IMG/VR virus record: IMGVR_UViG_3300032265_001739
Coordinates: 1-21,805 of that record
Source of the DNA: a virus
Reading direction: 5' to 3' (one strand)
Length of the DNA stretch: 21,805 nucleotides
Position 1 is the first letter of the stretch; every line of letters begins with the position of its first letter. Made by a program: the position numbers and the translations under genes. Positions 382-18,362 of this stretch are shown one piece after another. The notes below the pieces were generated by a model, which saw nothing but the letters and a program-made list of their open reading frames with translations, made no database searches and was not told the DNA's origin.

Positions 382-1251
382 ATGGCTAAAGCATCACACA
401 AACCTTCCGCTGTTACCAGCACCGTTATCGAGTTCGACACAGAAGCTGTGGCTCGTAAAGAAAAAGCAATCGCCGCTGAATCAGATCAGAGCATACTGGA
501 TCGCTTGAATGAGCGTTTTGATATCCTCACTGAGATGACCAAGGCTGTGAAGTCTGGCGATGTCCGTGCTATGATCGTCAGTGGCCCTCCAGGCGTGGGC
601 AAGAGCCACAATGTAGAGGCAGTACTGCAAAAGGACGGCCTGTTTGATACCCTGGGCGAACGCAAGCCCAAGTTCGAAGTGGTAAAGGGTGCTATGAGCT
701 CCATCGGACTCTACAGTAAGCTCTACGAGTTCAGCGACGCTAAACATGTACTGGTGTTTGATGACTGTGACGACATCCTGCAGGAAGAGCTGAGCCTTAA
801 TATTTTGAAAGGCGCCCTGGACTCAAATGCTCGTCGTTTCATCAGCTGGAACACTGATAGTCGCATCCTGCGTAGTGAAGGTATCCCAGATCGCTTTGAG
901 TTCAAGGGTGCCGCTATCTTTATTACCAACATCAAGTTCGAGCATGTTCGAAGCAAGAAGCTGAAGAGCCACTTGGATGCGTTGGAAAGCCGTTGCCACT
1001 ACATGGACTTGGAGATGGATACCCAGCGTGAAAAGATGCTGTGGATCAAGAACATCGTGCAGAAGGGCATGTTGGACCGTTACGAGTTCAGTGAGATCAC
1101 CAAAGATGAAGTGCTGGATTTCATCAACAAGAATAAGGACACTCTGCGTGAGCTGAGCCTGCGTATGGTCTTGAAGATCGCTGATCTGCGCAAGGCATTC
1201 CCCAACACTTGGATGGCGATGGCTCGTACTACCTGTATGCGTCGAGGCTAA
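382..1251 (+). CDS. AAA+ family ATPase
   Basis: This 289-aa P-loop ATPase is probably an energy-dependent remodelling factor; its target is unknown. Walker A is GPPGVGKS at residues 68-75, followed by a hydrophobic strand ending in the Walker B VLVFDDCDD at about 123-131. A sensor-1-like strand IFITN ends at N183, and ESR at about 202-204 could supply the arginine finger. The C-terminal 80 residues are helical and charged, as in an AAA+ lid. The first 40 residues are low in structure. It is too short and too different to be the T4 clamp loader gp44. The start has AAAGG seven bases upstream and lies behind a consensus sigma70 promoter. The small membrane gene follows three bases after the stop, so they are probably co-transcribed. 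The AAA+ fold is certain, the role is not. Confidence 0.85.
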   Translation: MAKASHKPSAVTSTVIEFDTEAVARKEKAIAAESDQSILDRLNERFDILTEMTKAVKSGDVRAMIVSGPPGVGKSHNVEAVLQKDGLFDTLGERKPKFEVVKGAMSSIGLYSKLYEFSDAKHVLVFDDCDDILQEELSLNILKGALDSNARRFISWNTDSRILRSEGIPDRFEFKGAAIFITNIKFEHVRSKKLKSHLDALESRCHYMDLEMDTQREKMLWIKNIVQKGMLDRYEFSEITKDEVLDFINKNKDTLRELSLRMVLKIADLRKAFPNTWMAMARTTCMRRG

Positions 1252-1254
1252 AGA

Positions 1255-1554
1255 GTGGAGCGTATAGTCTTATACGCTTCACTGGGTGCCCTACTCAGTG
1301 CCTATGATGTCAAGTGGGACTCCGCAGAGTTCTGGTGCATCCTGGGCCTGTTTTGGGTCAGTGAAGTCATCAACAGATTCGAGGGTGCCAAGATGGGTGC
1401 GGGCCGTGTGCTTGAACTCAGCATGTGGCAGATCGCCCGCATCAAGTCACAGATCGAACGATTGGATCGAGAACAGAGCAAGACTGCAGAGCAAGAGCTG
1501 GCTGACCTAGAAGCAACACTGAAGAACAAGGACAAGCACGATGACCAACAATGA
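1255..1554 (+). CDS. Small membrane protein with a C-terminal coiled coil
   Basis: 99 aa, starting at GTG 1255 three bases after the ATPase stop. Residues 4-17 and about 27-39 (FWCILGLFWVSEV) are hydrophobic and look like one or two membrane segments separated by a short acidic loop. Residues about 55-95 are a charged amphipathic helix rich in Glu, Lys, Arg and Gln, likely a cytoplasmic coiled coil. The architecture resembles small phage membrane proteins of many kinds (spanin-like, holin-like or host-envelope effectors), but nothing identifies one of these. Its tight position behind the AAA+ gene suggests that the two act together. The 3' end overlaps the next gene by 14 bases. Confidence 0.6.
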   Translation: MERIVLYASLGALLSAYDVKWDSAEFWCILGLFWVSEVINRFEGAKMGAGRVLELSMWQIARIKSQIERLDREQSKTAEQELADLEATLKNKDKHDDQQ

Positions 1555-1831
1555 TCAAGACTACGGGCAGTACCTATGCCAATACATAGGCCCGGACACT
1601 AGCCAGTTCAAGCCTACATGCTGTAATCCTACAGCAGACAAGGATGCCAGCTACTGCGTAGAGCACGGGCGCATAGTCTATCAACAGGGCACAGCACGCC
1701 GCAAGCGTCACAAAGAGATACGCACCGTGGACAAGGTCAGACTGGTAGAGCAACTGATGATGGACGCCATCGCAGAGCTGGAAGCTGAAGGTTTCGACTG
1801 CTACGGTGAACGGGCTCTTGATTTGGTTTAA
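1541..1831 (+). CDS. GcrA-like zinc-binding domain protein
   Basis: 96 aa. The N-terminal half has a Cys/His pattern: CQY at 13-15, CC at 27-28, then YCVEHGRIVYQ at 38-48, followed by a basic patch (ARRKRHKE). This recalls the C-terminal part of GcrA, the alphaproteobacterial cell-cycle transcription factor, where a CQWP element is followed by a Cys and a YCxxHxxxxYQ element. The N-terminal helix-turn-helix of GcrA is absent. A regulatory or nucleic-acid-binding role is likely by inference. The C-terminal 40 residues form an acidic helix. It overlaps the preceding membrane-protein gene by 14 bases and is the last gene of this operon. The match was judged by eye and could be another treble-clef zinc protein. 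Confidence 0.55.
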   Translation: MTNNDQDYGQYLCQYIGPDTSQFKPTCCNPTADKDASYCVEHGRIVYQQGTARRKRHKEIRTVDKVRLVEQLMMDAIAELEAEGFDCYGERALDLV

Positions 1832-2067
1832 CCAGACCGGTGGTGGTGGCCAGGTGGGATGGGGGGCATGTACGCAAGCATGCAACCCTAACCCGCTAGC
1901 TTGCATGCCAAAAGTTCTCAAATAATCCCCGCAAAAACCCCTAAATAAAAGTCGACTTAGACTAGATCACCTGGGGCCGAGATCTCGATACCTCTAAAAT
2001 TTTGCGCGGCAATTTTTTGCCCACTATATAGACCTCGGGCCCGCTGGCATCGCGTAAATACAACCAT
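1832..2067. promoter_or_regulatory. Non-coding region crowded with perfect palindromes
   Basis: I see no convincing gene in these 236 bases. They hold the 10-bp palindromes AAGTCGACTT (1949-1958) and CGAGATCTCG (1978-1987). They also hold the 8-bp palindromes AAAATTTT (1996-2003), CTATATAG (2024-2031) and CGGGCCCG (2036-2043), and shorter ones including GCATGC twice, GCTAGC, ACCGGT and TGGCCA. A bulged hairpin pairs 1865-1879 with 1899-1909 (11 bp, with TACG bulged). GGGGCCGAG (1973-1981) pairs with CTCGGGCCC (2034-2042) with one mismatch. A weak TTGC-GCG-GCAA stem followed by TTTTTT at about 2002-2018 may terminate transcription. Possible roles are an operator array, an origin, or a structured RNA. 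Confidence 0.6.
2053..2060 (+). promoter_or_regulatory. T4-late-like octamer (CGTAAATA)
   Basis: CGTAAATA ends seven bases before the ATG at 2068. It matches the last six positions of the T4 late octamer TATAAATA. There is no Shine-Dalgarno sequence before that ATG. If active, transcription would begin within about two bases of the start codon. Confidence 0.35.
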
Positions 2068-2979
2068 ATGCTAAAACAACTGCGCAAAACCTGGCTACAA
2101 CACAAGAAAGAACTGCCGCCCAGTAAAGAACTAGCTGTCTACGGTGATTCATTTGTAGATCCCAATTGCAGTGCCGTTACCAGTTTAACAAGGTCAGATC
2201 TAGCTGAACACTACTACATATCTGCTTGGAGCACACAGTTAGTAGCACACTATTCACCAGAATACACCAAATCTATTAGGGACTATAAAGCCGCTAGTCG
2301 TCCGCATGTCTACGGTCGTTCGGGCGCCAGCAATTGGTACACCTATCAGCGTTTCCTCGACACGCATCATCTCTACAAGCGTATAGTATGGGTTTGGACC
2401 AATAAATCGCGTTGGCCCCATCTGCCCAAGGGTCTAGAAGGACATAACTTCAACACTACCAACATGCACACGATTATTGAAAAACAGCGTCCATATCAAA
2501 TAGATCAGCCATTGGTAGAGCTCCTGGAGCAGTGCAACGGTGTATATCCATTGATCTTTACCGATGAACTACTGGACTTTATCAATGCTGGCATATTTCT
2601 AGATGTACAACAGCGTTGTCGAAGTCGTGGTATAGCCTTGGTAAACATCACCATAGATGATGATCACACCAGCGCATGGCCCGCTACGGACTATCCCATG
2701 CTGAGAGGGCTTAACAATGTCAGTTGGCGTGAACAATCAGGTGTTGATGATCAGCTGATGCGTGACATCATCAATGAGCAATTTCTAGTGGAAATGCGTA
2801 GCTGTCACCTCAACGCAGCCAACAATCGTCTGCTCTGCCAGTTGGTTGTCAATCACCTGGATCAAAACTCTGCCTGCTATCGTAGTCTACCCGATGACTA
2901 CACCTGGGATTGGTCAGTGGATCCCTTGGTGCAGGAGTTCTATTCGAACTATAAACAGCTTGTGTCTACATCAAAATAG
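2068..2979 (+). CDS. SGNH/GDSL-hydrolase-like protein
   Basis: 303 aa. Block I is AVYGDSFVD with candidate nucleophile S28, in the GDS setting typical of SGNH hydrolases. Block II is GRSGASNW with G86 and N89, and a hydrophobic strand ends in VWVWTN at 107-112. These proteins are usually esterases or acetyl-transfer enzymes acting on carbohydrate, lipid or peptidoglycan acyl groups. The normal DxxH near the C terminus is not clear: RSCH at 244-247 keeps the His but has Arg in the Asp position, so activity is uncertain. The GASN motif is shared with the two other SGNH-like proteins of the window (13397-13993 and 20810-21520). No Shine-Dalgarno sequence precedes ATG 2068. No signal peptide is visible. 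Confidence 0.7.
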   Translation: MLKQLRKTWLQHKKELPPSKELAVYGDSFVDPNCSAVTSLTRSDLAEHYYISAWSTQLVAHYSPEYTKSIRDYKAASRPHVYGRSGASNWYTYQRFLDTHHLYKRIVWVWTNKSRWPHLPKGLEGHNFNTTNMHTIIEKQRPYQIDQPLVELLEQCNGVYPLIFTDELLDFINAGIFLDVQQRCRSRGIALVNITIDDDHTSAWPATDYPMLRGLNNVSWREQSGVDDQLMRDIINEQFLVEMRSCHLNAANNRLLCQLVVNHLDQNSACYRSLPDDYTWDWSVDPLVQEFYSNYKQLVSTSK

Positions 2980-3012: not shown

Positions 3013-3312
3013 ATGGAATTTTTATCGAGAATTTTTAATCTAGCAGTCAACAATGATCTAACCACAGAGTTTGATCGCGTGAAACAGCGTCATCTATTGG
3101 CTCGGAACAGAGTTGACGCCGCTCGTGTTGAACTGGCACGGGCCATTGAGGGTGCCGCTGAACTGGCAGAAGCTACTCGTGAGGCCGCTGAAGCCGCTGC
3201 CAATCACGCATCAGCAGAAGCACAACGACTGGCACAGGAGGCCCGTGTGGCCGCAGAATCAGCAGACTATCATCGTAGCCTGGTGGCTCGTAGGACTCCC
3301 ACACTGGATTAA
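3013..3312 (+). CDS. Ala/Glu-rich coiled-coil protein
   Basis: 99 aa. From about residue 20 to 92 it is one long amphipathic helix rich in Ala, Glu and Arg with hydrophobic heptad spacing, ending in a short RTPTLD tail. The repeated AxEAA/AELA units suggest a two-stranded or higher coiled coil. The N terminus (MEFLSRIFNLAVNN) is a short amphipathic or membrane-touching helix. The family is not recognised; small structural, scaffold-like or regulatory proteins can look like this. The start is well supported by TAGGAG seven bases upstream and a sigma70-like promoter. It is probably monocistronic, since a strong terminator stem lies at 3389-3419. Confidence 0.65.
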   Translation: MEFLSRIFNLAVNNDLTTEFDRVKQRHLLARNRVDAARVELARAIEGAAELAEATREAAEAAANHASAEAQRLAQEARVAAESADYHRSLVARRTPTLD

Positions 3313-3388
3313 AAATTTTTACCGCTCGGCGCTTCGCGCTCTCTGGGCCCGGGTTCCGAATTATCCTCAATTTTTAACCCGTTGAGAT
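3313..3388. other. Short GC-rich, palindrome-containing intergenic segment
   Basis: After the coiled-coil stop come AAAAATTTTT (3311-3320), a small GCGC-TTC-GCGC stem at about 3330-3340, and the overlapping palindromes GGGCCC and CCCGGG at about 3345-3353. CGGGTT (3350-3355) can pair with AACCCG (3376-3381). The combination of an A/T palindrome, a GC-rich stretch and GGGCCC is like that at 1996-2043. I see no gene. Confidence 0.4.
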
Positions 3389-3421
3389 AAGTACACATAT
3401 ATTTTTCCTATGTGTACTTTT
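3389..3421 (+). terminator. Intrinsic terminator
   Basis: AAGTACACATA (3389-3399) and TATGTGTACTT (3409-3419) form a perfect 11-bp stem around a 9-base loop and run into TTTTGTTT. It would end transcription of the coiled-coil gene. It also covers the ATG at 3412, which argues for the later start of the next gene. Confidence 0.8.
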
Positions 3422-3432
3422 GTTTATTTGCC

Positions 3433-3981
3433 ATGCTGATCGCCATCCGAGACCCCCATGATCCCCTGCTAGCTCTGCTGGCCGACGATCCCGTTAGACC
3501 CCATATTGATCCCCTGCTGAGAGTAAGTGGGCCACATCGTGTGTTTGCCCTAGTGGACCCCCTGACAGATCAGGTTCGGGCCATGGTCTGTGTGGCCTTT
3601 GGCAGTGAGGTGCCCACTGGTGAAAGTCAACTGTTTCTAATGGATCTGGACCTAGCCCGTGTGGCCGTGTTCTACACAGTTTGGAGCTACTCTCCTGGTG
3701 CAGGGCGTGAGATCATATTTGCCGTGCGTGAATGGATACTGGCTCACATGCCCCGTGTGGAGCAGTTTGTCACCTTGAGCCCTAAAACTGACATGGCCCG
3801 CAGATTCCATATCAAAAATGGGGCCCGTGAACTTAGAGTGAACGAAGATTCAGTAAACTACGAATATCCCGGTAAAGCTGGTCAAGATCCTCTAGTGCCT
3901 GATCATAGTCAGCAGAGACCTGTATCGCTCGACCCCCAGCCGCTCGCCACTGCTCACAGTTCTGTGGCCGATCATCAATAA
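3433..3981 (+). CDS. GNAT-like N-acetyltransferase domain protein
   Basis: From ATG 3433 the protein has 182 aa. The upstream ATG 3412 lies inside a terminator stem, so I reject it. The strand-helix order fits a GNAT fold: an AMVCVAFG strand at 50-57, a strand at about 67-71, a helix at 92-105 (GREIIFAVREWILAHM), a strand VEQFVTLSP at 109-117, a helix with MARRFHIKNGARE at 121-133, and a final strand at 135-145. The RFHIKNGA segment is like the C-terminal motif of GNAT enzymes. The acceptor is unknown. Residues after about 146 are Pro, Gln and Ser-rich and antisense to the conserved end of the nucleotidase gene, so they are probably a read-through extension. No Shine-Dalgarno sequence is evident. 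Confidence 0.5.
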   Translation: MLIAIRDPHDPLLALLADDPVRPHIDPLLRVSGPHRVFALVDPLTDQVRAMVCVAFGSEVPTGESQLFLMDLDLARVAVFYTVWSYSPGAGREIIFAVREWILAHMPRVEQFVTLSPKTDMARRFHIKNGARELRVNEDSVNYEYPGKAGQDPLVPDHSQQRPVSLDPQPLATAHSSVADHQ

Positions 3982-4387: not shown

Positions 4388-5086
4388 CTACTGCTGACTA
4401 ATACTTAGTTCGGTGTCATGTAGTCGATTGATTAACTTGACTATGCCCTTTATTGTACTATCATTTCTGAGACTTTTATAGACTAAATTTTCCACACTGA
4501 ACTCACCAGCGGGATTCTTGAGGCCCAGCTTGCGATATCTGCGTAGCAGACTCAGGCTGGCTCTACAGGCAGTTAAATTACCAGTTTTCATGGCCTGCTT
4601 GATGAGATTTCTCCAGGACTGGGCTAGTTCTTCAACTTGACCCATATCATGAGGAGGTATGTCTTTTACCGGCTCCCTGATCCAATGATCTGTCAGTAGG
4701 CTGTAGCTGGCCGAGACAGCAGGGTGCCGTTGATCTTCTACATAGAGCTCCACGGGTATGCCGCGGATCTTTAGGCTGTATTCTTCCTTGTAGAGCAGAC
4801 GCTTGGTGTCAAACAGTTCTGCGGCTTCGCGATCACAGCTGACTGTGTCAAAGTCCGCTATGAGATGTAGATCCAAATCCGAATGTTCAGTATAGGTATA
4901 GGCCGCATTGCTGCCGGCTACCACTAGATCCTTAACAGTAAATTCTATACCAATATAACGGTAAAAATCCTGGGCAATTTTGATCAGGCTTCTTTTGACT
5001 TCGGGGCGCAGTTTGCCCTCATGCCAAAGGCGTGGGTTCAGTTCCGAATGTAATTCAATTGGGGCGGCAAACTCGTTTAGGCTCAT
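4388..5086 (-). CDS. Nucleotidyltransferase-fold protein (DNA polymerase beta superfamily)
   Basis: 232 aa. The nucleotidyltransferase signature is VVAGSNAAYTYTEHSDLDLHL at about 55-75: GS at 58-59 with the metal-binding pair D70 and D72. A third acidic residue is E113 in the strand PVELYVED. This is the minimal catalytic core of the polymerase-beta-type nucleotidyltransferases. The C-terminal half (from about 145) is helical, as in many such enzymes where it binds the acceptor. The substrate is unknown; candidates include RNA ends, tRNA, a protein or a small molecule. The start has no Shine-Dalgarno sequence, and AATAAATA ends seven bases before it. The nucleotidase gene follows on the same strand. 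Confidence 0.75.
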   Translation of the reverse strand: MSLNEFAAPIELHSELNPRLWHEGKLRPEVKRSLIKIAQDFYRYIGIEFTVKDLVVAGSNAAYTYTEHSDLDLHLIADFDTVSCDREAAELFDTKRLLYKEEYSLKIRGIPVELYVEDQRHPAVSASYSLLTDHWIREPVKDIPPHDMGQVEELAQSWRNLIKQAMKTGNLTACRASLSLLRRYRKLGLKNPAGEFSVENLVYKSLRNDSTIKGIVKLINRLHDTELSISQQ

Positions 5087-5093
5087 AGTCGTT

Positions 5094-5101
5094 TATTTAT
5101 T
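5094..5101 (-). promoter_or_regulatory. Late-promoter-like octamer AATAAATA (minus strand)
   Basis: On the minus strand AATAAATA ends seven bases before the ATG of the nucleotidyltransferase. It fits the NATAAATA form of T4-type late promoters. If used, the mRNA would have almost no leader. Confidence 0.45.
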
Positions 5102-5102
5102 G

Positions 5103-5110
5103 GTTAAATA
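5103..5110 (+). promoter_or_regulatory. Late-promoter-like octamer GTTAAATA (plus strand)
   Basis: GTTAAATA ends five bases before ATG 5116, which has no Shine-Dalgarno sequence. It sits next to the oppositely oriented AATAAATA in a 29-base divergent gap. Confidence 0.35.
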
Positions 5111-5115
5111 ATCAT

Positions 5116-5685
5116 ATGAGCATGAGTTGGAACAATTATCAAGGTCACCTAATAGCAAGTCATCCTTGCAATCCTCAGGATGAGCATCATCATTCAGTCA
5201 TTCTAATGGTGAACCATACACCCGATACCGCAGTGGGGCTACGAATCAATCAGTTGGTTAATATCCCTGTACTTAAGAACATAGTCAACGAAAATCTAGG
5301 CATTGACTATCACAGAGACGACCCTTTGTACAGCGGAGGGTCTTCCAGCGCCAATAAGATACATGTGATACACAGCATGGATTGGTCGGGTCTGAGCACG
5401 GTGCAGATCACTGATGATATTGGCATTACCAATGATATCAGTGTGTTTGCCGCCCTAAGCAGAGACGAAGGACCCGAACATTTCAAAGCCTGCATGGGCT
5501 TTTGGTTTTGGGCCAACGGACACTTTGATCTACAGATGAATCACAAGATACGCCCGCAGGAGTCCAGACATCGCTGGGAACCTGTAGAAGCCACTATTGA
5601 AAACACTTTCCAAACTCCCGAAGTACTGATGTGGGATCGGGTCATAGAAGAAAGTGCCAAGATGCAGATCAACAGTTGGTTTTAA
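5116..5685 (+). CDS. YqgE/AlgH family protein
   Basis: 189 aa. The N terminus has GHLIASHP at 10-17 followed by SVILMVNHTPDTAVGLRINQ at 27-46, which corresponds to the conserved start of the YqgE/AlgH (UPF0301, DUF179) family: a secured strand, SVI.. and G.x.N. DPLYSGGSSS at 69-78 corresponds to the family's P.Y.GGPV, KIHVIHS to its F.LH strand, and FKACMGFWFWANGHFDLQMN at 123-142 to the Gly/Trp-rich LGYxGWxxGQLE region. The family has no settled biochemical function; AlgH was linked to alginate regulation in Pseudomonas. In a phage the job is unknown. There is no Shine-Dalgarno sequence. The stop overlaps the convergent helicase stop by four bases (TTAA). Confidence 0.75.
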   Translation: MSMSWNNYQGHLIASHPCNPQDEHHHSVILMVNHTPDTAVGLRINQLVNIPVLKNIVNENLGIDYHRDDPLYSGGSSSANKIHVIHSMDWSGLSTVQITDDIGITNDISVFAALSRDEGPEHFKACMGFWFWANGHFDLQMNHKIRPQESRHRWEPVEATIENTFQTPEVLMWDRVIEESAKMQINSWF

Positions 5686-7133
5686 TCCTTTTCGGGATTG
5701 ATATTCTGTAGCATCTTACGCATCAAGGGTGCTTCTGATTTAGGTTTGGCTGCGGCAATCTTGCCAACACTGATACCCTGTGTGGGATCAATTTCTCCTG
5801 TTTCTGGATCCACTGTGCCTGTACTGACCACACTGGTTCTCTTGAATCCCGAGTATAAGTTATTGGACTGTGTTTTTTGTTGACTGAAAGATGACTCTTG
5901 TTCTTCTTCGCCTAGATCAGTGATACGCAGAGTATCCAAGTTAAACTCTAGTTCGACCTTTTGACCTACACCGCTGGAACTACGAGTTTTCATAAACTGT
6001 ATCTGATAGCGTCCGCGTTCTTTCATAGCCCTACTGGTAAAGATACCAATCACATTATCCGCTGTCATGATCTTTGACAAACCGCCCGAAATATGACTGT
6101 GATCAAACTCAATTTCCTCAACAGCACTACGATTTAACTGACTCGCTGTAACCGTGATACATTGTGTTTCCATTGCTAGATTTCGAATCTCTTCTGATAC
6201 ATATTTGTCTTTTACAAACAGATCGCTGGGCGATACCTTCACTGATAAAGGCATCATCAAATCGAGGTAATCTATTAATAAAACATCGGGTTTCACGCCT
6301 TTTTTGACCTGATATTCTTTCAAATAGGCTCGAATATCGTTACAATTTTTCCCCGAAGGCATATACTTAACTTGCAGGTTTCCTGCCTTTTTACCCAGCA
6401 TTTTAACCTTGAGTTCAACATCATCGATGCTCTTGAAAATCTCTCGGGTACCAATACCTGTGGTCATACTATCCAATCGCATGGCCACTAGTCCTTCGCT
6501 CAACTCAAATGTTAGGTATAGGACATTTAGTCCCTGTAGGGCCCAGTTAACGCCGAGATTAGCCAGGAACAAACTCTTACCACCGCCCGATCCTGCACAG
6601 AAAATATTCAACTCGCCACGATTAAATCCACCGTACAGCTTTTTATCAATGCTGGGCCATCCTGTTGAAATTTGTCCATTACCATCTTTCAATTTGGTCA
6701 AACGACTTTTGGGATCTTCAAAGTAATCTGTGCCCATGTCCTTATTCAAACTAATCTGGATAGCATCCTTAATCAGCTTTTCTACAGGGCCATAGTCACC
6801 CGCATCCAATAGGTCACTGCTTTTGATGATCGCTCGTTCTAGCCCCTTGTGTCGACTAAAAGTCTCAAACTCATCCATCAGCCAATCATAATTTTCCTTG
6901 GGCAGAGCAACAGGATTAAAGTCACTGTTAGTTGACACATTGACAATATTAGCCTCGGGCATGACCTTGTATTCATCAACATATTTGTTGATAAATTCTG
7001 CGGCGTCTCTTAGCTTTTGATCAAAGTTTTCAGGATCAAAAATGTTCTGTACTCGGATAAAAGTTTCCGCATCACTGAGAAACATTTCCAAATACAATTT
7101 CTGCATTTTATAGTCGTAGTTTGTTTTAGTCAT
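5682..7133 (-). CDS. 41: Replicative DNA helicase, T4 gp41/DnaB type
   Basis: 483 aa. The N-terminal 140 residues are helical, as in DnaB-type helicases. The RecA-like core starts at TGWPSIDKKLYGGF, with Walker A AGSGGGKS at 180-187 and Walker B DVLLIDYLDL at 283-292. The motif TASQLNR is at 329-335, and FMKTRSSSGVG at about 380-390 holds a candidate arginine finger, R384. This is a ring-shaped 5'-3' helicase that unwinds the fork and partners with the gp61 primase, whose gene lies directly upstream with an 8-base overlap. The C-terminal 70 residues are low in structure (Gln, Ser, Lys and Pro-rich), a probable flexible tail for partner binding. The ATG start is set by the primase overlap. Confidence 0.95.
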   Translation of the reverse strand: MTKTNYDYKMQKLYLEMFLSDAETFIRVQNIFDPENFDQKLRDAAEFINKYVDEYKVMPEANIVNVSTNSDFNPVALPKENYDWLMDEFETFSRHKGLERAIIKSSDLLDAGDYGPVEKLIKDAIQISLNKDMGTDYFEDPKSRLTKLKDGNGQISTGWPSIDKKLYGGFNRGELNIFCAGSGGGKSLFLANLGVNWALQGLNVLYLTFELSEGLVAMRLDSMTTGIGTREIFKSIDDVELKVKMLGKKAGNLQVKYMPSGKNCNDIRAYLKEYQVKKGVKPDVLLIDYLDLMMPLSVKVSPSDLFVKDKYVSEEIRNLAMETQCITVTASQLNRSAVEEIEFDHSHISGGLSKIMTADNVIGIFTSRAMKERGRYQIQFMKTRSSSGVGQKVELEFNLDTLRITDLGEEEQESSFSQQKTQSNNLYSGFKRTSVVSTGTVDPETGEIDPTQGISVGKIAAAKPKSEAPLMRKMLQNINPEKD

Positions 7134-8121
7134 CTATACCTTCAAGTTTTTTCTTAATTAGATTTATTTTTATCTCTCCCGAGACTCTATAGTGCAAGAT
7201 CGTGGCTAGCGCATAGAGCCTTCCATATCGTTTAACTGCATCGGCAACATCCTTGATATCATCACCCCAAGGAGGCAAACTGGCTGACCAATTATTCTTT
7301 ATCGCATACTTCAACAGTTGGGCACCGGGCTTGTCTCGATCAGGTACAATGATTACCTCTCGATTCAATGCGTTCAATCTCATGACCTGTACATCGCTGA
7401 TCTCATTATGCATCACAGCACAGCTATCAACTGCGACAGCATCAAACTGTCCTTCTACCACTATGACAAATTTTCTTTGATAATCTTGATGATCAATATT
7501 GAATACACACCCAGGTTGGCTATGTGTTAGATACTTTGGTTTGCCATCTTTGATCTTACGACCTGTGTAGCCTACTATTTTACCTTCGTGATAGAATGGT
7601 AGTATCACACGATCTCGATAACCTGGCTCCGGACTCCAAAACCAAGGATACCAATCTATGCTCATACCTCTACTGTCAATGTAGTCAATCACTGATAAGA
7701 AATCTGGTTCTACACAGCCTGTCATGGCCCATTCTTTGATACTCTTGGCACCTTCGGGCAAAGGCCTTTCTTCCAGATCAAATTTTAATTCTTTAACAAC
7801 CGGTGCCTGCTCATCCCTCAATCTAAGAGCAACTAGACCCAGTCTTCCAATTTCTAACTCTGTCATACCTAGCCAGCTGAACATCTGCTTGGTATTGTTG
7901 CTGAGTAAATTGCCCGGAGTCCATCCTGCCTTGAAGTTGCAGTTGAAACAGTTATATTGAAATCCGCCCTTTTGATTGGGCAGTATGCCACCACGCATGC
8001 GAGTATCTTGGCTGTTACCTCTATGATGACAGCAGACAGCATTGAACGAAATCCAGCCGCTGAGCGTAGACTTTCGTTTAGGTGGCAAGAGAGCCATCAC
8101 TGTTGCATAGATTTCATCCAT
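7126..8121 (-). CDS. 61: DNA primase, T4 gp61 type
   Basis: 331 aa. The N-terminal zinc-binding region has CCHH at 30-33 and CFNC at 58-61, matching the Cys-rich template-reading domain of DnaG/gp61 primases. The catalytic TOPRIM domain has FVIVVEGQFDAV at 218-229 with E223, and IIVPDRDKPG at 257-266 with D261 and D263, which bind metal. It makes RNA primers for lagging-strand synthesis and works with the gp41 helicase encoded just downstream. The length is close to the T4 protein (about 340 aa). A second ATG four bases into the sequence is out of frame. The stop overlaps the helicase ATG region by eight bases, indicating coupled translation. Confidence 0.93.
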   Translation of the reverse strand: MDEIYATVMALLPPKRKSTLSGWISFNAVCCHHRGNSQDTRMRGGILPNQKGGFQYNCFNCNFKAGWTPGNLLSNNTKQMFSWLGMTELEIGRLGLVALRLRDEQAPVVKELKFDLEERPLPEGAKSIKEWAMTGCVEPDFLSVIDYIDSRGMSIDWYPWFWSPEPGYRDRVILPFYHEGKIVGYTGRKIKDGKPKYLTHSQPGCVFNIDHQDYQRKFVIVVEGQFDAVAVDSCAVMHNEISDVQVMRLNALNREVIIVPDRDKPGAQLLKYAIKNNWSASLPPWGDDIKDVADAVKRYGRLYALATILHYRVSGEIKINLIKKKLEGIDD

Positions 8122-13400: not shown

Positions 13401-13993
13401 TCTGTGATTAATTGATATATCTGTTTTGCAAACTGGCTGTGAGAATTCGGTCCTGGATGTACAGTATCATTGCCTCTGTCGATTACATTTAAATTAGGTT
13501 GTGTAGCATAATTTCTATCTACACTTGTCCATTGGGGGCAGTCAGTTAATAAAGATTCAGTTTGATTTATAGAAAAATCATAGTTTCTAATTTTTTTGTT
13601 TTCTAAAAACATTTTAGCATGATGAATATATAATGTACACCTTACAAAATTATCTCGATCGCTGTGAGCAGATGACCAATTAAGTAATCTACGATGCCCT
13701 TCCGGATCTCTAAGTTTATCCATCCAAGGACCTATTCTTAAAAATGAATTGTTTGTATCAAATACTAGATCTCTTTCTTTAAATGTCCATAAGATGACAA
13801 CTATATCGCTAGAACTAAAATCAAAATTTAGAATATTATAGAGTATTTCTAAATTACTTGCGCCAGCAAGACCGTTATTAACAGATTCCAATTTTAACAT
13901 ATTACCTAGTACGGCTGTCCAAGATTCGGCCAGAGGATTACTCAATCCCCTGCCGGCTGTCCACGAACATCCAAATGTAATTAGTCGACTCAC
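13397..13993 (-). CDS. SGNH/GDSL-hydrolase-like protein
   Basis: 198 aa from GTG 13993, which overlaps the preceding stop as GTGA. Block I is TFGCSWTAG with candidate nucleophile S10, where Cys replaces the Asp of GDS. Block II is GLAGASN with G44 and N47, followed by a strand VVILWTF at 65-71. The C-terminal catalytic pair is DTVHPG with D176 and H179, so a complete Ser-Asp-His set is present. Predicted activity is ester or acyl hydrolysis; the substrate is unknown. The gene is unusually AT-rich compared with its neighbours on both sides and sits between replication genes, which suggests acquisition by transfer. It shares GASN with the other two SGNH-like genes. Confidence 0.78.
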   Translation of the reverse strand: MSRLITFGCSWTAGRGLSNPLAESWTAVLGNMLKLESVNNGLAGASNLEILYNILNFDFSSSDIVVILWTFKERDLVFDTNNSFLRIGPWMDKLRDPEGHRRLLNWSSAHSDRDNFVRCTLYIHHAKMFLENKKIRNYDFSINQTESLLTDCPQWTSVDRNYATQPNLNVIDRGNDTVHPGPNSHSQFAKQIYQLITE

Positions 13994-14454
13994 TCGTATT
14001 CTTTCCGTTGCTTTTTATCAAGACCCATTTTATCAAACAATTCTTCTTTGTCTGATTTACTCATCATCGAAGCTATCTGTTTGATATCATCCATCTTCAT
14101 AGCAGGATAAATTTCGCACAATAGTTTTTCGATCTTATTGGCCTTGTCTTTTTTACCTGCGGCTAGATAGGGGTGATATGTAGATATACCTGCCCCAGTA
14201 GCCGCAAAAAGTTTCCACAACAATGCCTTGTGATTTTTGCTAAGATCAAAGTGATTTTTATTTACAAATTCGTTAGTAGTCTCTACAAACCATTCTTGAA
14301 TATCACGATCGCCTGCACAGCTGGCAGTATATCTCATCAAGATATAAGGACTAAATGCTTTCTTTTCTTCGTCTGTAAGATTATCATAGAAATCGTAGTT
14401 CTTTTGATCTACTGCATTAAGTTCTCGTTTGATATCAAGTTTTGCTGTTGCCAT
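13990..14454 (-). CDS. Probable clamp-loader small subunit (T4 gp62-like)
   Basis: 154 aa from ATG 14454. A GTG at 14493 would overlap the upstream gene further and has no better ribosome-binding site. The protein is all helical: YDFYDNLTDEEKKAFSPYILMRY at about 20-42, WFVETTNEFVN, LLWKLFAATG, a basic GKKDKANKIEKLL segment, and a C-terminal MDDIKQIASMMSKSDKEEL helix pair. The layout (FSPYxxxRY, then a helix with xxNE, then a basic turn and small helices) resembles the gp62 proteins of marine T4-like phages, which with gp44 load the gp45 clamp. The similarity is in pattern rather than clear identity, and gp44/gp45 are not in the window, so this is tentative. Confidence 0.5.
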   Translation of the reverse strand: MATAKLDIKRELNAVDQKNYDFYDNLTDEEKKAFSPYILMRYTASCAGDRDIQEWFVETTNEFVNKNHFDLSKNHKALLWKLFAATGAGISTYHPYLAAGKKDKANKIEKLLCEIYPAMKMDDIKQIASMMSKSDKEELFDKMGLDKKQRKEYE

Positions 14455-14722
14455 CGTCTTTATCTTTGCTAAGGTAGTACTGTACTTTAACACGATCTAG
14501 GGCCTGTTGTAAAGCCTTATCGGTCTTGGCTGCTCTCCGAATTTCCCCCCAAAGTTTATCATCCATTAGGTGGTCTCGTAACGGGCGGCCGTCACTGGTT
14601 CGAGAATCGTAATCATAACCGATCTCTTTTCTTGTACTAGGATCCGCCCCAAATTCTCGAGCATAGACAATTCCGCCTGCTCGTTCATAGATATATTTTA
14701 CACCTGGTTTTAAATTGCCCAT
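14435..14722 (-). CDS. Conserved hypothetical phage protein
   Basis: 95 aa. The sequence has a recognisable style: GVKYIYERAGGIVYAREFGADPSTRKEIGY, then DGRPLRDHLMDDKLWGEIRRAAKT and a C-terminal helix ALDRVKVQYYLSKD. I recall similar short proteins from T4-like phages but know no function. It is mixed in charge with a beta hairpin at the start and helices at the end. It overlaps the following clamp-loader-like gene by 20 bases and starts one base after the preceding stop. Its steady position among replication genes suggests a role in DNA metabolism. Confidence 0.65.
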   Translation of the reverse strand: MGNLKPGVKYIYERAGGIVYAREFGADPSTRKEIGYDYDSRTSDGRPLRDHLMDDKLWGEIRRAAKTDKALQQALDRVKVQYYLSKDKDDGNSKT

Positions 14723-14723
14723 A

Positions 14724-15227
14724 TTACCAACACTTAGTATAATCTACAATCTCACTTTGTCTAGAAACTTCTTTTACAAAGTATGCACAGCTTGGACCTT
14801 GTCCATCATGTAGTGGTGTGCATAATAATTGTCCAGGACGCATCTTGGGAAAATACCATTTTACATCTTGATAGACATCGATGATATCAATTTCAAAAAA
14901 TTCCGGCCTAAATCCGCTTAGGGGATTAAAACAAAATGTCTTAAATCCTCGATCATTCAAACTGGTTAGGGGCAAGACTTCCATTTCAGGCCCTTCGGGA
15001 TCCCCTACAATAGTACACCAATCTAATGGCATAGTCAGTTCGTGTGGACCAATTCTCAATACCGTCGCCGGGCCAGTAAAACTCTCCAAGAAAATTAATG
15101 GTATGAAAAAGTAATCGGGATTAGCATTGTCACTGTTATCTAGTACTGAGAATCTCAAGTCCTCGTCTATCTCGTCTGGTAAATCGTTGAGATGAAAAAT
15201 TTTATTATCTAATGTTAGAATCTGCAT
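14724..15227 (-). CDS. Conserved hypothetical phage protein
   Basis: 167 aa from ATG 15227, which shares one base with the uvsW stop (TAATG); a start at 15338 would lie inside uvsW and is rejected. It is beta-rich with an acidic beginning (NDLPDEIDEDLRFSV), then FFIPLIFLESFTGPATVLRIGPHELTMPLDWCTIVGD, VLPLTSLNDRGFKTFCFNPLSGFRPEF and DVYQDVKWYFPKMRPGQLL, ending VKEVSRQSEIVDYTKCW. Many Pro, Gly and aromatic residues point to a compact globular domain. I believe proteins like it occur beside uvsW in marine T4-like phages, but I know no function and see no catalytic motif. Confidence 0.65.
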   Translation of the reverse strand: MQILTLDNKIFHLNDLPDEIDEDLRFSVLDNSDNANPDYFFIPLIFLESFTGPATVLRIGPHELTMPLDWCTIVGDPEGPEMEVLPLTSLNDRGFKTFCFNPLSGFRPEFFEIDIIDVYQDVKWYFPKMRPGQLLCTPLHDGQGPSCAYFVKEVSRQSEIVDYTKCW

Positions 15228-16693
15228 TATTGGTATTTGACCTTTTGAATTGTAAAGGGATATTTCGCATCCTTGTAAAACTTTTTGCGTTCTGTAAGGT
15301 GACGTTTGGCATATTTTGTTGATGCTGTGACATCCCAAATTTGTACGAAGTCTTTATCGTCGGCTTTCCGAATACCGCGTCCAATTGATTGTATAACGCG
15401 GACAAAGCTCTTTCCGGGCTCAAGGAGAACCAGATGAAAAATCCGAGGAATATTAATACCCACAGCGGCCACACCATAAGTTGCCACAATAATCTTATTG
15501 TCAACTGTTTTAACTTCGTCATATTCTGCCTTGCGATCTTTTGTTTTTACTTCGCCTGAAATAAACACTGCATCTGGCAATGTTTCTACTAGATTTTTAC
15601 CCGAGTCAATACGATTAACAAGAACTAGCGTGTTTCCTGTTTCTGCAATGCCCTGTATTAGGTCACTAACATACTGCATCCTATCTTTGTCAGTGACTAA
15701 GAATTTCAATTCCTCTGCATAACTACCAAATTCCTTCCATTCGGCGGTCTGTACAATGTTAACATGACAATTACTCAGTACACCTTTTTCTTGTAATTCG
15801 TGTGCGCTGACTCTGTGAATAACTTCTCCTAGGCTAGCACGAATACTTTGAAATTCGTGGTCTGCTTTTGGTACTGTTCCTGTTAAGCCCCAGCGAATTG
15901 GTGTTTTTGCAAGGTTATGTGTCAGTAGAGTTTTCAGCACTTCTGCCTTGGCCATGTGAACTTCATCGACCATCACACATTGTACATTGTCCAACAACAT
16001 TTCAATTTTCGCACTGGCTGCTTCGTCCCAGTTTTTGCTATTTTTATCTAAAATATTCAAACTTTGCCAAGTGCAAATTGTATGCATCTTGTTTAGATCT
16101 TTTCTATCACCATAGTAAACACCTACGTCAAGACCGCAGTTGATAAAATCTTCTTCTGTTTGTTCAACTAGTGATTTATTAGGAACAATGGTTATTGTTC
16201 GACCGTATTTTTCACAGATTTTTGCCAGAGTTGCGGTGGTAATGGTCTTGCCAAAACCCGTAGCGATTTCTTGTATACATTGAGGATTGGCTAAAAATTT
16301 ATTGATCACCTCAGTCTGATCATCTCGCAATCTGATCTTTTCACCTGCAAAGCGATGACCTACTGGCCAGGTCTGATCACCCCAAAAATCTTCAAAAATT
16401 TCACTAAATTCTAGGGCACCTGCTTGACGCAGATCTTCTACTTCGATGTTAAAGTTTTTACTTTCTAAATATTCCAATACCTGTGGAAGCATGCTGAGGT
16501 AAGTTGTGCCCCCAAGACCAAAAAAGCTCACAGTACCATCCCATCGACCTAATTTATAGGCTGGACGGAACCGAGCAGTAGGGTCCTCATACTTGAACTT
16601 TTTAACCAAGGCCTTGCGAGTGTCAAGATCTAGATTTTCTATCTTGATGTTAACTTCATCCTTGATAACAATTTTACATGATGACAAAAGCAA
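15227..16693 (-). CDS. uvsW: UvsW-type DNA/RNA helicase (superfamily 2)
   Basis: 488 aa. The N-terminal domain (to about 115) resembles that of T4 UvsW, with FKYEDPTARFRPAYKLGRWDG. Helicase motifs follow in order: Walker A ATGFGKT at 144-150, DEVH box at 243-246, motif III TGT at 271-273, ATYGVAAVGI at about 404-413 and motif VI QSIGRGIRK at 435-443. UvsW unwinds branched DNA and R-loops, and in T4 it drives the switch from origin- to recombination-dependent replication. The start is TTG 16693 or TTG 16687; the former overlaps the upstream gene by 20 bases. The uvsX, UvsY-like and HARP-like genes lie upstream in the same block. Confidence 0.92.
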   Translation of the reverse strand: MLLSSCKIVIKDEVNIKIENLDLDTRKALVKKFKYEDPTARFRPAYKLGRWDGTVSFFGLGGTTYLSMLPQVLEYLESKNFNIEVEDLRQAGALEFSEIFEDFWGDQTWPVGHRFAGEKIRLRDDQTEVINKFLANPQCIQEIATGFGKTITTATLAKICEKYGRTITIVPNKSLVEQTEEDFINCGLDVGVYYGDRKDLNKMHTICTWQSLNILDKNSKNWDEAASAKIEMLLDNVQCVMVDEVHMAKAEVLKTLLTHNLAKTPIRWGLTGTVPKADHEFQSIRASLGEVIHRVSAHELQEKGVLSNCHVNIVQTAEWKEFGSYAEELKFLVTDKDRMQYVSDLIQGIAETGNTLVLVNRIDSGKNLVETLPDAVFISGEVKTKDRKAEYDEVKTVDNKIIVATYGVAAVGINIPRIFHLVLLEPGKSFVRVIQSIGRGIRKADDKDFVQIWDVTASTKYAKRHLTERKKFYKDAKYPFTIQKVKYQ

Positions 16694-17858
16694 ACTCCAT
16701 TTCTTTAGATTTTCCTGAAAAATTTATTAAATTATGGTGTCTTGACAGGTATTCTCTAATCGAATAATGCACACCGCCAATTCCTAGGTTTAAAATACAG
16801 TTAAATTTTATATTAGATTTTAACACAGGCTTGGGTAATTTACTACTGATAAAAACTACCTTCGTTTTGTCAGAAATTGGCGAATTTAAGGCCTGTTTTT
16901 TAACAAAATCGTTAAATTCTTTGCCAGTTTCGGTGGGTAAACGGAACATGACACTCATCTCACTATCATTGATACCCATTTGATGGAAAAGATCATAACT
17001 TTCTAGTAATGTGTTAAGCTCAGAGCCGCCGGGTATAACAACCATACAGGGCAACATATTTTTTACCAGCTCGGAAATGTCAGAAAACGGTATTTTTTCA
17101 GAATTTATGTTGAAGCCGGTATCGACACTAGATTTTAAAAATTCTATGACCAAGGGATCAGTGGTGTCTTGATTCAATACTGCATCAATCTCATCTGACC
17201 ATACCGTGATTCCATATTTTCTTGCCGCGAACAGTGATTCGATTATGTCCACACCTTGAAAATTAGGCAAATTTTTATGCACATTTTTAAATTTCGGAGT
17301 ATTATTTTCTAGCACTACCATAGGTACAAAATTTTCAACATCTTGCTGAATTTTAGCAATTTGATTTTGATAATTTAAAAATTCTTCGTCAATCGTCCAC
17401 TCATTTTTTAAACTAAGGTCAGAGACGAATTTAATATTGGCTTCACAAAGGGCAAATATCCAAGATTTTAGATCTTTGTTCCATACTGCCGGACCTAATT
17501 TGTTTTTAGTATTACGAATATCTGCTATAACAGATTCGTCATAGGGAAATTCTACCTTAATAATTTTTCCGTAGGTGTTATCTGGCAAAATACTTATTCT
17601 ACGAGAATTAGTAATTTTTCTAATGGCTAATTTGAACTTGGGGGTCTCTAAAAATCCACTAACATCAGAATTTAGGCGAGCTGATAATGTTGTAGAATAT
17701 CTTTTTAATATCTTGACTGCTAGGTCGGACTGTTTTTCTGTAAATGCCGATCCTCGACCTGTTTGATCACAAAAACTCAAGACTATATTATGGTCCCAGT
17801 TGTTAAGGGTACCAATTCTTAGTCTAGCAAGTTCAAAAATTAGGTCTTCAATGTACAT
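16674..17858 (-). CDS. HARP-domain-like protein of unknown function
   Basis: 394 aa. Residues about 96-150 (KIIKVEFPYDESVIADIR...VWNKDLKSWIFAL) resemble the HARP domain, which precedes the helicase in annealing helicases such as SMARCAL1: a strand with FPY, a helix, then W/yd...K.W.F. Before this there is an FTEKQSDLAVKIL segment. The C-terminal 200 residues alternate strands and helices (CMVVIPGGSEL, KVVFISSK, FNCILNLGIG) like a nucleotide-binding or helicase-type core, but no Walker motifs are present. The gene is AT-rich, has its own extended -10 sigma70 promoter behind a terminator, and overlaps uvsW by 20 bases, so the two are probably translated together and may cooperate on branched DNA. 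Confidence 0.55.
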   Translation of the reverse strand: MYIEDLIFELARLRIGTLNNWDHNIVLSFCDQTGRGSAFTEKQSDLAVKILKRYSTTLSARLNSDVSGFLETPKFKLAIRKITNSRRISILPDNTYGKIIKVEFPYDESVIADIRNTKNKLGPAVWNKDLKSWIFALCEANIKFVSDLSLKNEWTIDEEFLNYQNQIAKIQQDVENFVPMVVLENNTPKFKNVHKNLPNFQGVDIIESLFAARKYGITVWSDEIDAVLNQDTTDPLVIEFLKSSVDTGFNINSEKIPFSDISELVKNMLPCMVVIPGGSELNTLLESYDLFHQMGINDSEMSVMFRLPTETGKEFNDFVKKQALNSPISDKTKVVFISSKLPKPVLKSNIKFNCILNLGIGGVHYSIREYLSRHHNLINFSGKSKEMEFAFVIM

Positions 17859-17863
17859 GATTT

Positions 17864-17892
17864 ATTATAGCATAAAAATAGGCAAAGATCAA
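17864..17892 (-). promoter_or_regulatory. Sigma70 promoter with extended -10 (TTGATC-17-TATAAT)
   Basis: On the minus strand TTGATC (17887-17892) and TATAAT (17864-17869) are 17 bases apart, with TGC directly before the -10. Only five bases separate the -10 from the ATG of the HARP-like gene, so +1 would fall on or near the A of that ATG. The -35 overlaps the terminator stem. Confidence 0.7.
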
Positions 17893-17901
17893 ATCTTTGC
17901 C
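17873..17901 (-). terminator. Intrinsic terminator after the UvsY-like gene
   Basis: On the minus strand GGCAAAGAT and ATCTTTGCC form a perfect 9-bp stem with a 3-base loop (17881-17901), followed by TATTTTTATG. It lies just downstream of the UvsY-like stop at 17907. The -35 of the next promoter is inside the hairpin. Confidence 0.8.
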
Positions 17902-17906
17902 CATTG

Positions 17907-18362
17907 TTATAAACTGATATCTTCCAAACCTGCGGCTCGAAGTTTGATGATATTACTTAACTGCCACTGCTTGATGTCAAGACCTTTGATAATTCCCAGC
18001 CATTGATTTCGTAGCATGGCAAATTCATTGATAATTTTCTCCATATCAATGACATCGGGCTCACCTTCCACATATTTTTCACAATCTCGACTACTCAATG
18101 CCCGTTGGTAAGTTTCCAAGTATTTTCTAAATGCTTTAGACCTAATACGGCGTAGCTCAATGTTTAAATATTCTAAGATTGCTTCAACTTCTTGCAGTTG
18201 ATTGAATCGTTGCTCAACAATACCGGGAAGTTGAGCAGAAGCCTTTTCTACATTTCCGTGTACTTTGACTTCTGCTCTAGCCTGGTCTAGTTCATTGTAA
18301 AAATGATCTAAACAGTTCGGAAGGTGCGCTATGTCTTTGCTAACTTTAGCGTACCAAGACAC
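17907..18362 (-). CDS. Probable UvsY-like recombination mediator
   Basis: 151 aa from GTG 18360-18362, with GAGGA upstream. It is all helical and charged, with a central long helix RFNQLQEVEAILEYLNIELRRIRSKAF and a C-terminal MLRNQWLGIIKGLDIKQWQLSNIIKLRAAG at about 117-147. T4 UvsY (137 aa) also consists of helices with a C-terminal segment ending IKHIQDMRAF that helps it oligomerise and load UvsX onto gp32-covered DNA. The similarity is in length, helix pattern and C terminus. Synteny supports it: uvsX is two genes upstream and uvsW two genes downstream. A terminator directly follows the stop. Confidence 0.5.
   Translation of the reverse strand: MSWYAKVSKDIAHLPNCLDHFYNELDQARAEVKVHGNVEKASAQLPGIVEQRFNQLQEVEAILEYLNIELRRIRSKAFRKYLETYQRALSSRDCEKYVEGEPDVIDMEKIINEFAMLRNQWLGIIKGLDIKQWQLSNIIKLRAAGLEDISL

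Follow-up and report, generated by a model that had tools for sequence, protein, structure and literature searches.

A single-copy non-coding element of freshwater T4-like phages and its occurrence in bacterial islands

What is the role of a non-coding gap crowded with palindromes in the genome of a T4-like phage? The gap studied here occupies positions 1832-2067 of the window, i.e. the complete 21,805-nt virus record IMGVR_UViG_3300032265_001739, and had been picked out in an earlier note as a possible operator array, replication origin, packaging site or structured non-coding RNA. The source of the window is a T4-like phage, as is evident from the encoded UvsX, UvsW-like helicase, gp32-like single-stranded DNA-binding protein, DnaB-like helicase and primase. 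The gap contains a single copy of a composite cis element that a group of freshwater T4-like phages has in common, situated at the 3' end of an NrdC.10-type operon, with the DnaB and primase genes on its other side. The element probably marks a site of phage DNA copying or packaging, and its most conserved part, the core, is also present in islands of freshwater bacteria.

A conserved multi-part element

The relatives used for comparison are the best 80 IMG/VR matches to the protein of the ATPase gene at 382-1251, on fragments of 4-355 kb. In blastn searches against these relatives the gap is conserved, mostly on the same strand. The conserved unit is a core of ~85 bp (1957-2041), which can be written as TTAGAnTAGATCACC..GGGG..GAGATCTC..TTTTGCGCrGCAATTTTTT..TATAGACC. 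With a profile built from the blastn-aligned gap, a full core is detected in 66 of the 80 relatives (a count that includes the window), and a second set of loci, fetched by pattern, brings the collection to 125 loci with 80 distinct cores. The consensus of the latter is c.agTTAGA.tagAtCaCCaggggccgaGaTCTcca...c.......tttTGcgc.gcAattTTTt........ta.A, with near-invariant blocks and an almost constant spacing as far as the second T-tract. The core is kept at the nucleotide level though the protein of the neighbouring gene D, present in 76 of the 80 relatives, is ~30-64% identical. At a blastn cut-off of E<=1e-3 the core matched 40 loci, more than any of the coding stretches compared, the ATPase gene being the only exception; the adjacent genes C, D, G, H and J gave fewer DNA-level matches among the relatives, and the other non-coding gaps of the window are more narrowly conserved. 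A protein-coding core was rejected, as the relatives differ by indels whose lengths do not keep to multiples of three and no conserved open reading frame (ORF) was seen.

Each of six contigs of 151-355 kb contains exactly one full core, and the copy number remains one per phage contig across 11 contigs of 52-355 kb. In a model search of 25 records, 12 matched with one full core each, usually accompanied by a partial copy of the right half just downstream; such partial copies reappear within ~1 kb downstream in many relatives. The search for cultured relatives yielded no nucleotide match among 50,697 phage records, and the element is absent from PA5oct, which is among the closest cultured carriers of an NrdC.10 homologue. 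The gene upstream of the element is co-directed with it in 62 of 67 loci, while the gene on its other side has the same direction in 41 loci and converges on it in 26 (approximate counts, the ORFs having been chosen automatically). The element is not tied to the downstream gene, because the strand and identity of that gene vary, and a role as promoter of the next gene was rejected on the same grounds. Some relatives have extra genes between gene D and the element.

The palindromes that drew attention to the locus are real. All five perfect palindromes of 8-10 bp reported within 1949-2043 were found, together with several of 6 bp, and the gap is indeed non-coding, with genes on both sides (1541-1831 and 2068-2979). 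Compared with 5000 dinucleotide shuffles of 1832-2067, palindromes are significantly denser, both for lengths of at least 6 bp (10 observed, 4.2 expected, P 0.009) and of at least 8 bp (5 observed, 1.07 expected, P 0.004). For 1949-2043 alone, a stretch picked post hoc, the 5 palindromes of at least 8 bp compare with 0.39 expected and were reached in 0 of the 5000 shuffles; no other 95-bp stretch of the window is as dense, and the window as a whole shows no excess (319 against 347 expected). The homologous stretches of 72 relatives, which are phylogenetically non-independent, hold 384 palindromes of at least 6 bp against 214 expected and 159 of at least 8 bp against 56 (2.8x), and 395 random stretches of the same relatives' loci yield 0.85x and 0.90x of expectation, respectively. 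A lack of conservation in relatives, named in the earlier note as a refutation, is not what was found: the stretch as a whole is strongly conserved. The single palindromes are mostly not. Position by position, AGATCT is retained in 34 of 51 sequences, GAGATCTC in 20 of 51, and the other tested palindromes of 8-10 bp in 1-4 of 51. The excess stems mainly from the GATCTC-type, CTATATAG-type and AAAATTTT blocks of the core and from the arms of the upstream hairpin.

An operator array of dimer sites was therefore rejected, since individual palindromes are not retained in the relatives and it is not the palindromes themselves that are conserved. Among the meanings put forward in the earlier note, a cis-acting DNA site (origin or packaging site) fits best, given the single copy per genome, the fixed spacing and the presence in integrative islands, and neither the operator array nor, for the core, a structured RNA finds support.

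The bulged 11-bp hairpin reported upstream exists as well, GGCATG(TACG)CAAGC at 1865-1879 pairing with GCTTGCATGCC at 1899-1909, and the near-perfect long-range repeat is probably that of CCCCGCAAAA (1927-1936) and TTTTGCGCGG (2000-2009), which are 90% complementary. In the relatives the hairpin ends in GCATGCC or CGCTTGC, with a stem of at least 6 in 68% as compared with 7% of shuffles, and pairing is retained despite the variation in arm sequence (44 distinct arms in 56). In the relatives the G-poor stretch between hairpin and core contains 8-mer repeats in 38 of 79, where 4.2 are expected. A lineage-specific expansion of this stretch is observed in L047 and L050 (~7395-7560, upstream of the core), with 6-7 tandem copies of AAATGATTCAAACCTTCCCC; L050 has 7 tandem 20-mers. 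The parts of the element and the surrounding genes are listed in Table 1.

Table 1. Features of the window at and around the element (6-bp palindromes are given by a single position).
Feature	Position	Strand	Remarks
AAA+ ATPase gene, T4 NrdC.10 homologue (PHROG 1250)	382-1251	+	its operon ends at the element
Gene D, 96 aa, weak GcrA-like C-terminus (below Pfam cut-off)	1541-1831	+	last gene upstream of the element
G-rich stretch	1832-1864	+	immediately 3' of the stop codon
6-bp palindrome ACCGGT	1836		
6-bp palindrome TGGCCA	1847		
Hairpin	1865-1909	+	ends in conserved GCATGCC motif; pairing kept, arm sequence variable
6-bp palindrome GCATGC	1878 and 1903		
6-bp palindrome GCTAGC	1895		
G-poor A/C/T-rich stretch	1910-1956	+	short direct repeats, variable in number, in relatives
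10-bp palindrome AAGTCGACTT	1949-1958		
Core, left half	1957-1987	+	TTAGACTAGATCACCTGGGGCCGAGATCTCG
10-bp palindrome CGAGATCTCG	1978-1987		
Core, right half	1996-2018	+	AAAATTTTGCGCGGCAATTTTTT; two A/T tracts flank TTGCGC(G/A)GCAA
8-bp palindrome AAAATTTT	1996-2003		
Core, end	2024-2041	+	CTATATAGACCTCGGGCC; TAtA-GACC consensus, spacing slightly variable
8-bp palindrome CTATATAG	2024-2031		
8-bp palindrome CGGGCCCG	2036-2043		
TAAATA, T4-type late-promoter-like hexamer	2054-2059	+	8 nt before the gene E ATG; outside the core
Gene E	2068-2979		start ATG at 2068; directly 3' of the gap
DnaB-like helicase gene	5682-7133	-	conserved replication cluster, beyond the variable region downstream of the element
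Primase gene	7126-8121	-	same cluster

Gene E retrieved no relatives when used as query. Ahead of the NrdC.10-type gene, at 318-346, a perfect sigma-70 promoter is observed (TTGACA, 17-bp spacing, extended TG, TATAAT). The window and seven relatives (L003, L005, L010, L024, L043, L059 and L068) have their left ends at scattered positions within a few kb upstream of this gene; such contig ends are probably caused by a hypervariable early region that breaks assemblies. A second non-coding gap at 3313-3435 has ~32-nt matches in 13 relatives, and the palindrome AAAAATTTTT at 3310-3321 is reminiscent of the A/T tracts of the core.

Bacterial islands sharing the core

A 21-base exact core pattern matched two bacterial assemblies, those of Limnohabitans sp. 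Jir72 and of a Methylophilaceae metagenome-assembled genome, in agreement with the profile scores. Scans of 301 and 187 genomes of the two families brought further matches, and the regions confirmed on inspection to contain the core number nine (L257-L264 and L239). The weak matches L252-L256 (E 2.5e-4 to 9.4e-4 per genome) have no island genes nearby and were judged to be chance. All nine regions except L264 have clustered island genes from a common set, including a short tyrosine recombinase (6 regions), DUF6641 (6), a small MRFYEF-type gene (5) and a larger integrase; in L264 DUF6641 is detected by tblastn only. A gp44-like clamp-loader ATPase is encoded in L259, L260 and L263, and L258 has an NrdC.10 homologue with 32-36% identity to the phage gene. 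The latter region adjoins an apparent guaA on a contig of 1.3 Mb, and its genes for ZorA, ZorB and ZorC (Zorya type I) are located at 13863-18337.

Attachment-site (att) limits were set for two islands only. The G115 island measures 10.6 kb and is bounded by perfect 48-bp repeats of a tRNA-Pro 3'-end, the G426 island measures 8.8 kb and is bounded by perfect 45-bp repeats of a tRNA-Phe 3'-end, and in both the core lies inside. PHROG families for capsid, tail or terminase were not found in these two delimited islands, nor was a RepA.

The islands also share the late-promoter pattern of the phages. TAAATA-N2-9-ATG starts occur at 1.86 per 10 kb inside the islands and at 0.23 in the flanking DNA, an 8-fold difference, and in the window and the six phage contigs TAAATA precedes ORFs of 60 aa or longer more often than any of the seven control hexamers does. 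In the window (2054-2068, 5101-5116, and 5086 and 8970 on the minus strand) and in the six contigs the hexamer lies merely 5-9 nt before the ATG; with a transcription start positioned as in T4, the late mRNAs would presumably be leaderless or nearly so. Small genes behind TAAATA in L257, L260-L264 and L239 start with MRFYEF, MRINEI, MRITEI or MKISEI, and a second family with MNNY/MNDY. Some of these island N-termini (MRFYEF, MRINEI, MRITEI, MKISEI) appear to resemble the capsid-targeting N-terminus of T4 internal proteins. The gene at 4388-5086 on the minus strand of the window starts with MSLNEF.

Integrase genes, att repeats and the lack of a full virion gene set (the last two as seen in the two delimited islands), together with signals and genes matching those of a helper (core, TAAATA starts, ATPases), are as expected of satellites. 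Their gene content suggests that they are satellites of T4-like phages that carry the cis site of their helper. Slightly more likely than not, they constitute a family of T4-like phage satellites not described before, resident in freshwater Burkholderiales (Limnohabitans and Methylophilaceae), with tRNA genes as integration sites and, in one member, Zorya. Such satellites may exploit T4-like phages through the phages' own single-copy replication or packaging element and through late genes that follow T4-type late promoters and in part have capsid-targeting-like N-termini. In Methylophilaceae 20 further DUF6641 regions, several of them with tRNA repeats, gave no core match. The DUF6641 island family is wider than the element, and the version with this core forms a subset only, which would be expected if every satellite matches its own helper. 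Four core-less DUF6641 islands of Methylophilaceae genomes (L275, L276, L281 and L292) have direct repeats of 39-64 bp (longer in L276), mostly tRNA pieces, at 8-13 kb from each other.

Possible functions of the element

For a cis site present once per phage genome and again in islands that have no virion genes, the simplest role is that of a place where the phage machinery takes up DNA. The most likely function of the element, tentatively assigned, is that of a replication origin. The core would recruit a phage initiator or a T4-type replisome, with the neighbouring hairpin or AT-rich DNA as the entry site, and its presence in the islands would make island DNA a substrate for the helper machinery. 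During infection, satellite DNA with the core may be copied into concatemers, followed by headful packaging. Plasmids with a T4 origin are replicated, packaged and transduced by T4 on infection, so an origin alone would be enough for a satellite. In T4, minimal origins measure ~100 bp, oriE has iterons, and strand switches and skew shifts are found close to oriE, oriF and oriG (PMC3016281). These features and the behaviour of the plasmids are the reason why an origin is preferred over a packaging site and over transcription control. In 6 of 6 contigs a local extremum of the cumulative GC skew is located 1.4-7.1 kb from the element, and the direct repeats upstream of the core are iteron-like, similar to those of oriE.

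Several observations weigh against an origin. Known satellites mostly share the packaging site of their helper and not its origin. The GC skew tracks gene strand, not replication; as an origin signature it was rejected, because the third-position skew of the flanking genes shows no consistent shift. The strand switch at the element is convergent, whereas strand-switch origins of T4 have been described at transcriptional divergence (PMC3016281), and the PLE satellites (phage-inducible chromosomal island-like elements) have their own initiator and origin (PMC7145576). A family search for MotA, for which no control genome provided a positive control, gave no homologue. TTTGCGC and TAtAgA-like boxes are present, but without a MotA match, and a convincing sigma-70 -10 box is missing at the right place. 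An AT-rich dip just past the core, with its stability minimum ~105 nt from where the core begins, is seen in 43 loci, only where the next gene is co-directed, and is lacking in the 29 with a convergent gene. Only part of the island family carries the core, with no match in the 20 further DUF6641 regions. Finally, in the 25-record search the core is missing from phage contigs of 323 kb and 77 kb that belong to a related clade.

Rather doubtful, as compared with an origin, is a pac-type packaging-initiation site, which the terminase would recognise on concatemers and which satellites would use to enter helper capsids. Sharing the packaging signal of the helper is the usual form of satellite parasitism, and both the single copy per genome and the DNA-like nature of the core (see below) are in line with it. 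The element is located ~340 nt from the island end in G115. Packaging in helper particles has been reported for phage-inducible chromosomal islands (PICI) and PLE (PMC6092414, PMC7145576), and the pac site of phage ICP1 is located in an ORF-less gap (PMC7145576). The large-terminase gene, however, is 19-32 kb away from the element in 9 of 9 contigs, and a packaging site beside the terminase gene was rejected on account of this distance, terminase adjacency being typical of pac sites, not universal. Furthermore, contig ends do not coincide with the element, and T4 packages its DNA without a strict site.

Control of transcription is an unlikely explanation. Under this reading the early operon would end in a terminator (G-rich hairpin and Rho-type C-rich stretch), and satellites would sense infection through a borrowed phage-inducible promoter located after it (TTGCGC-N17-TATA-like right half). 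Terminator-shaped stems with T-runs are observed in several relatives: in L002, L005, L007, L042 and L046 the G-rich stretch holds a GCACCTGG...CCAGGTGC-type stem followed by T5-T8, the shape of an intrinsic terminator. A C-over-G bubble precedes the core, TTGCGC is found ~17-19 bp before TAtA, and in L257, L258 and L263 the core is positioned 200-420 nt upstream of a co-directed tyrosine recombinase gene. These features contrast with the convergent downstream gene in 26 of the 67 phage loci and with L260, where the integrase gene ends against the core. Moreover, one or two copies per genome are not what is seen for a promoter class, the -10 lacks its final T, and the conservation extends well beyond the needs of a terminator.

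The core is constrained as DNA, not as RNA. RNAalifold predicts 0 pairs for 51 aligned cores, and covariation within the core, as mutual information, is found mainly between neighbouring columns. The whole gap folds no better than its shuffles (z-score -0.9 on the plus strand and +0.5 on the minus strand). Rfam returns no family at gathering or permissive thresholds, the highest-scoring match below threshold, to a plant miRNA model, being fortuitous (11.2 bits against a cut-off of 60). The upstream hairpin covaries, but without strand preference: its mispairs comprise 7 G:T and 6 A:C, and therefore neither strand shows an RNA-like wobble bias. A structured non-coding RNA, or a structured 3' untranslated region of the operon, is accordingly very unlikely, despite the hairpin being retained with changing sequence in most relatives and the G-rich and C-rich flanks pairing slightly better than shuffled sequence. 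Least credible is a recombination site for the short tyrosine recombinase of the islands, e.g. for insertion into or resolution from phage DNA: the gene is present in 6 of the 9 core-bearing regions, and three of these have it at no more than ~0.5 kb from the core, but it is 2-4 kb away in three islands, many recombinase-bearing islands have no core, and phages would not maintain such a site because no homologue was found in the six phage contigs.

Comparison with known systems

That a cis site is common to helper and satellite is a known principle. In the papers searched, which were open-licence full texts, no satellites of T4-like phages, no conserved single core of T4-like phages and no link of DUF6641 to such an element were found. 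If the reading given here is correct, a large group of environmental T4-like phages has in common a sequence-defined, single-copy cis element, which would point to satellites of T4-like phages and explain what these steal. It would also add a defence-carrying family of mobile islands to abundant freshwater bacteria, and one core per genome would provide a cheap marker for helper-satellite pairs in metagenomes. The origins of T4 itself have no shared motif, and a conserved element would therefore make an origin or packaging function testable by comparison.

Like the packaging sites used by helper-satellite pairs (cos of P2/P4, cos or pac of the PICI), the element occurs as a sole cis site both in a group of phages and in small integrative islands devoid of virion genes. 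Unlike in those systems, the presumed helpers are large T4-like phages and the terminase gene is distant from the site. The PLE satellites of Vibrio phage ICP1 are similar in that islands of ~10-20 kb would parasitise a virulent myovirus, but they rely on a RepA initiator and an origin of their own (PMC7145576), and no core-like element has been described for them.

The closest resemblance in setting is to the origins of T4, of which oriF and oriG consist of a middle promoter and an unwinding element and oriE contains iterons. In both cases ~100 bp of non-coding DNA in a T4-like genome is found near a strand switch and a skew extremum, with repeats upstream and replication genes adjacent. The differences concern the MotA box and homologue, which were not found here, and the strand switch, which is convergent. 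In addition, T4 uses several origins per genome, and these lack a common motif, whereas in the freshwater phages a single core is highly conserved.
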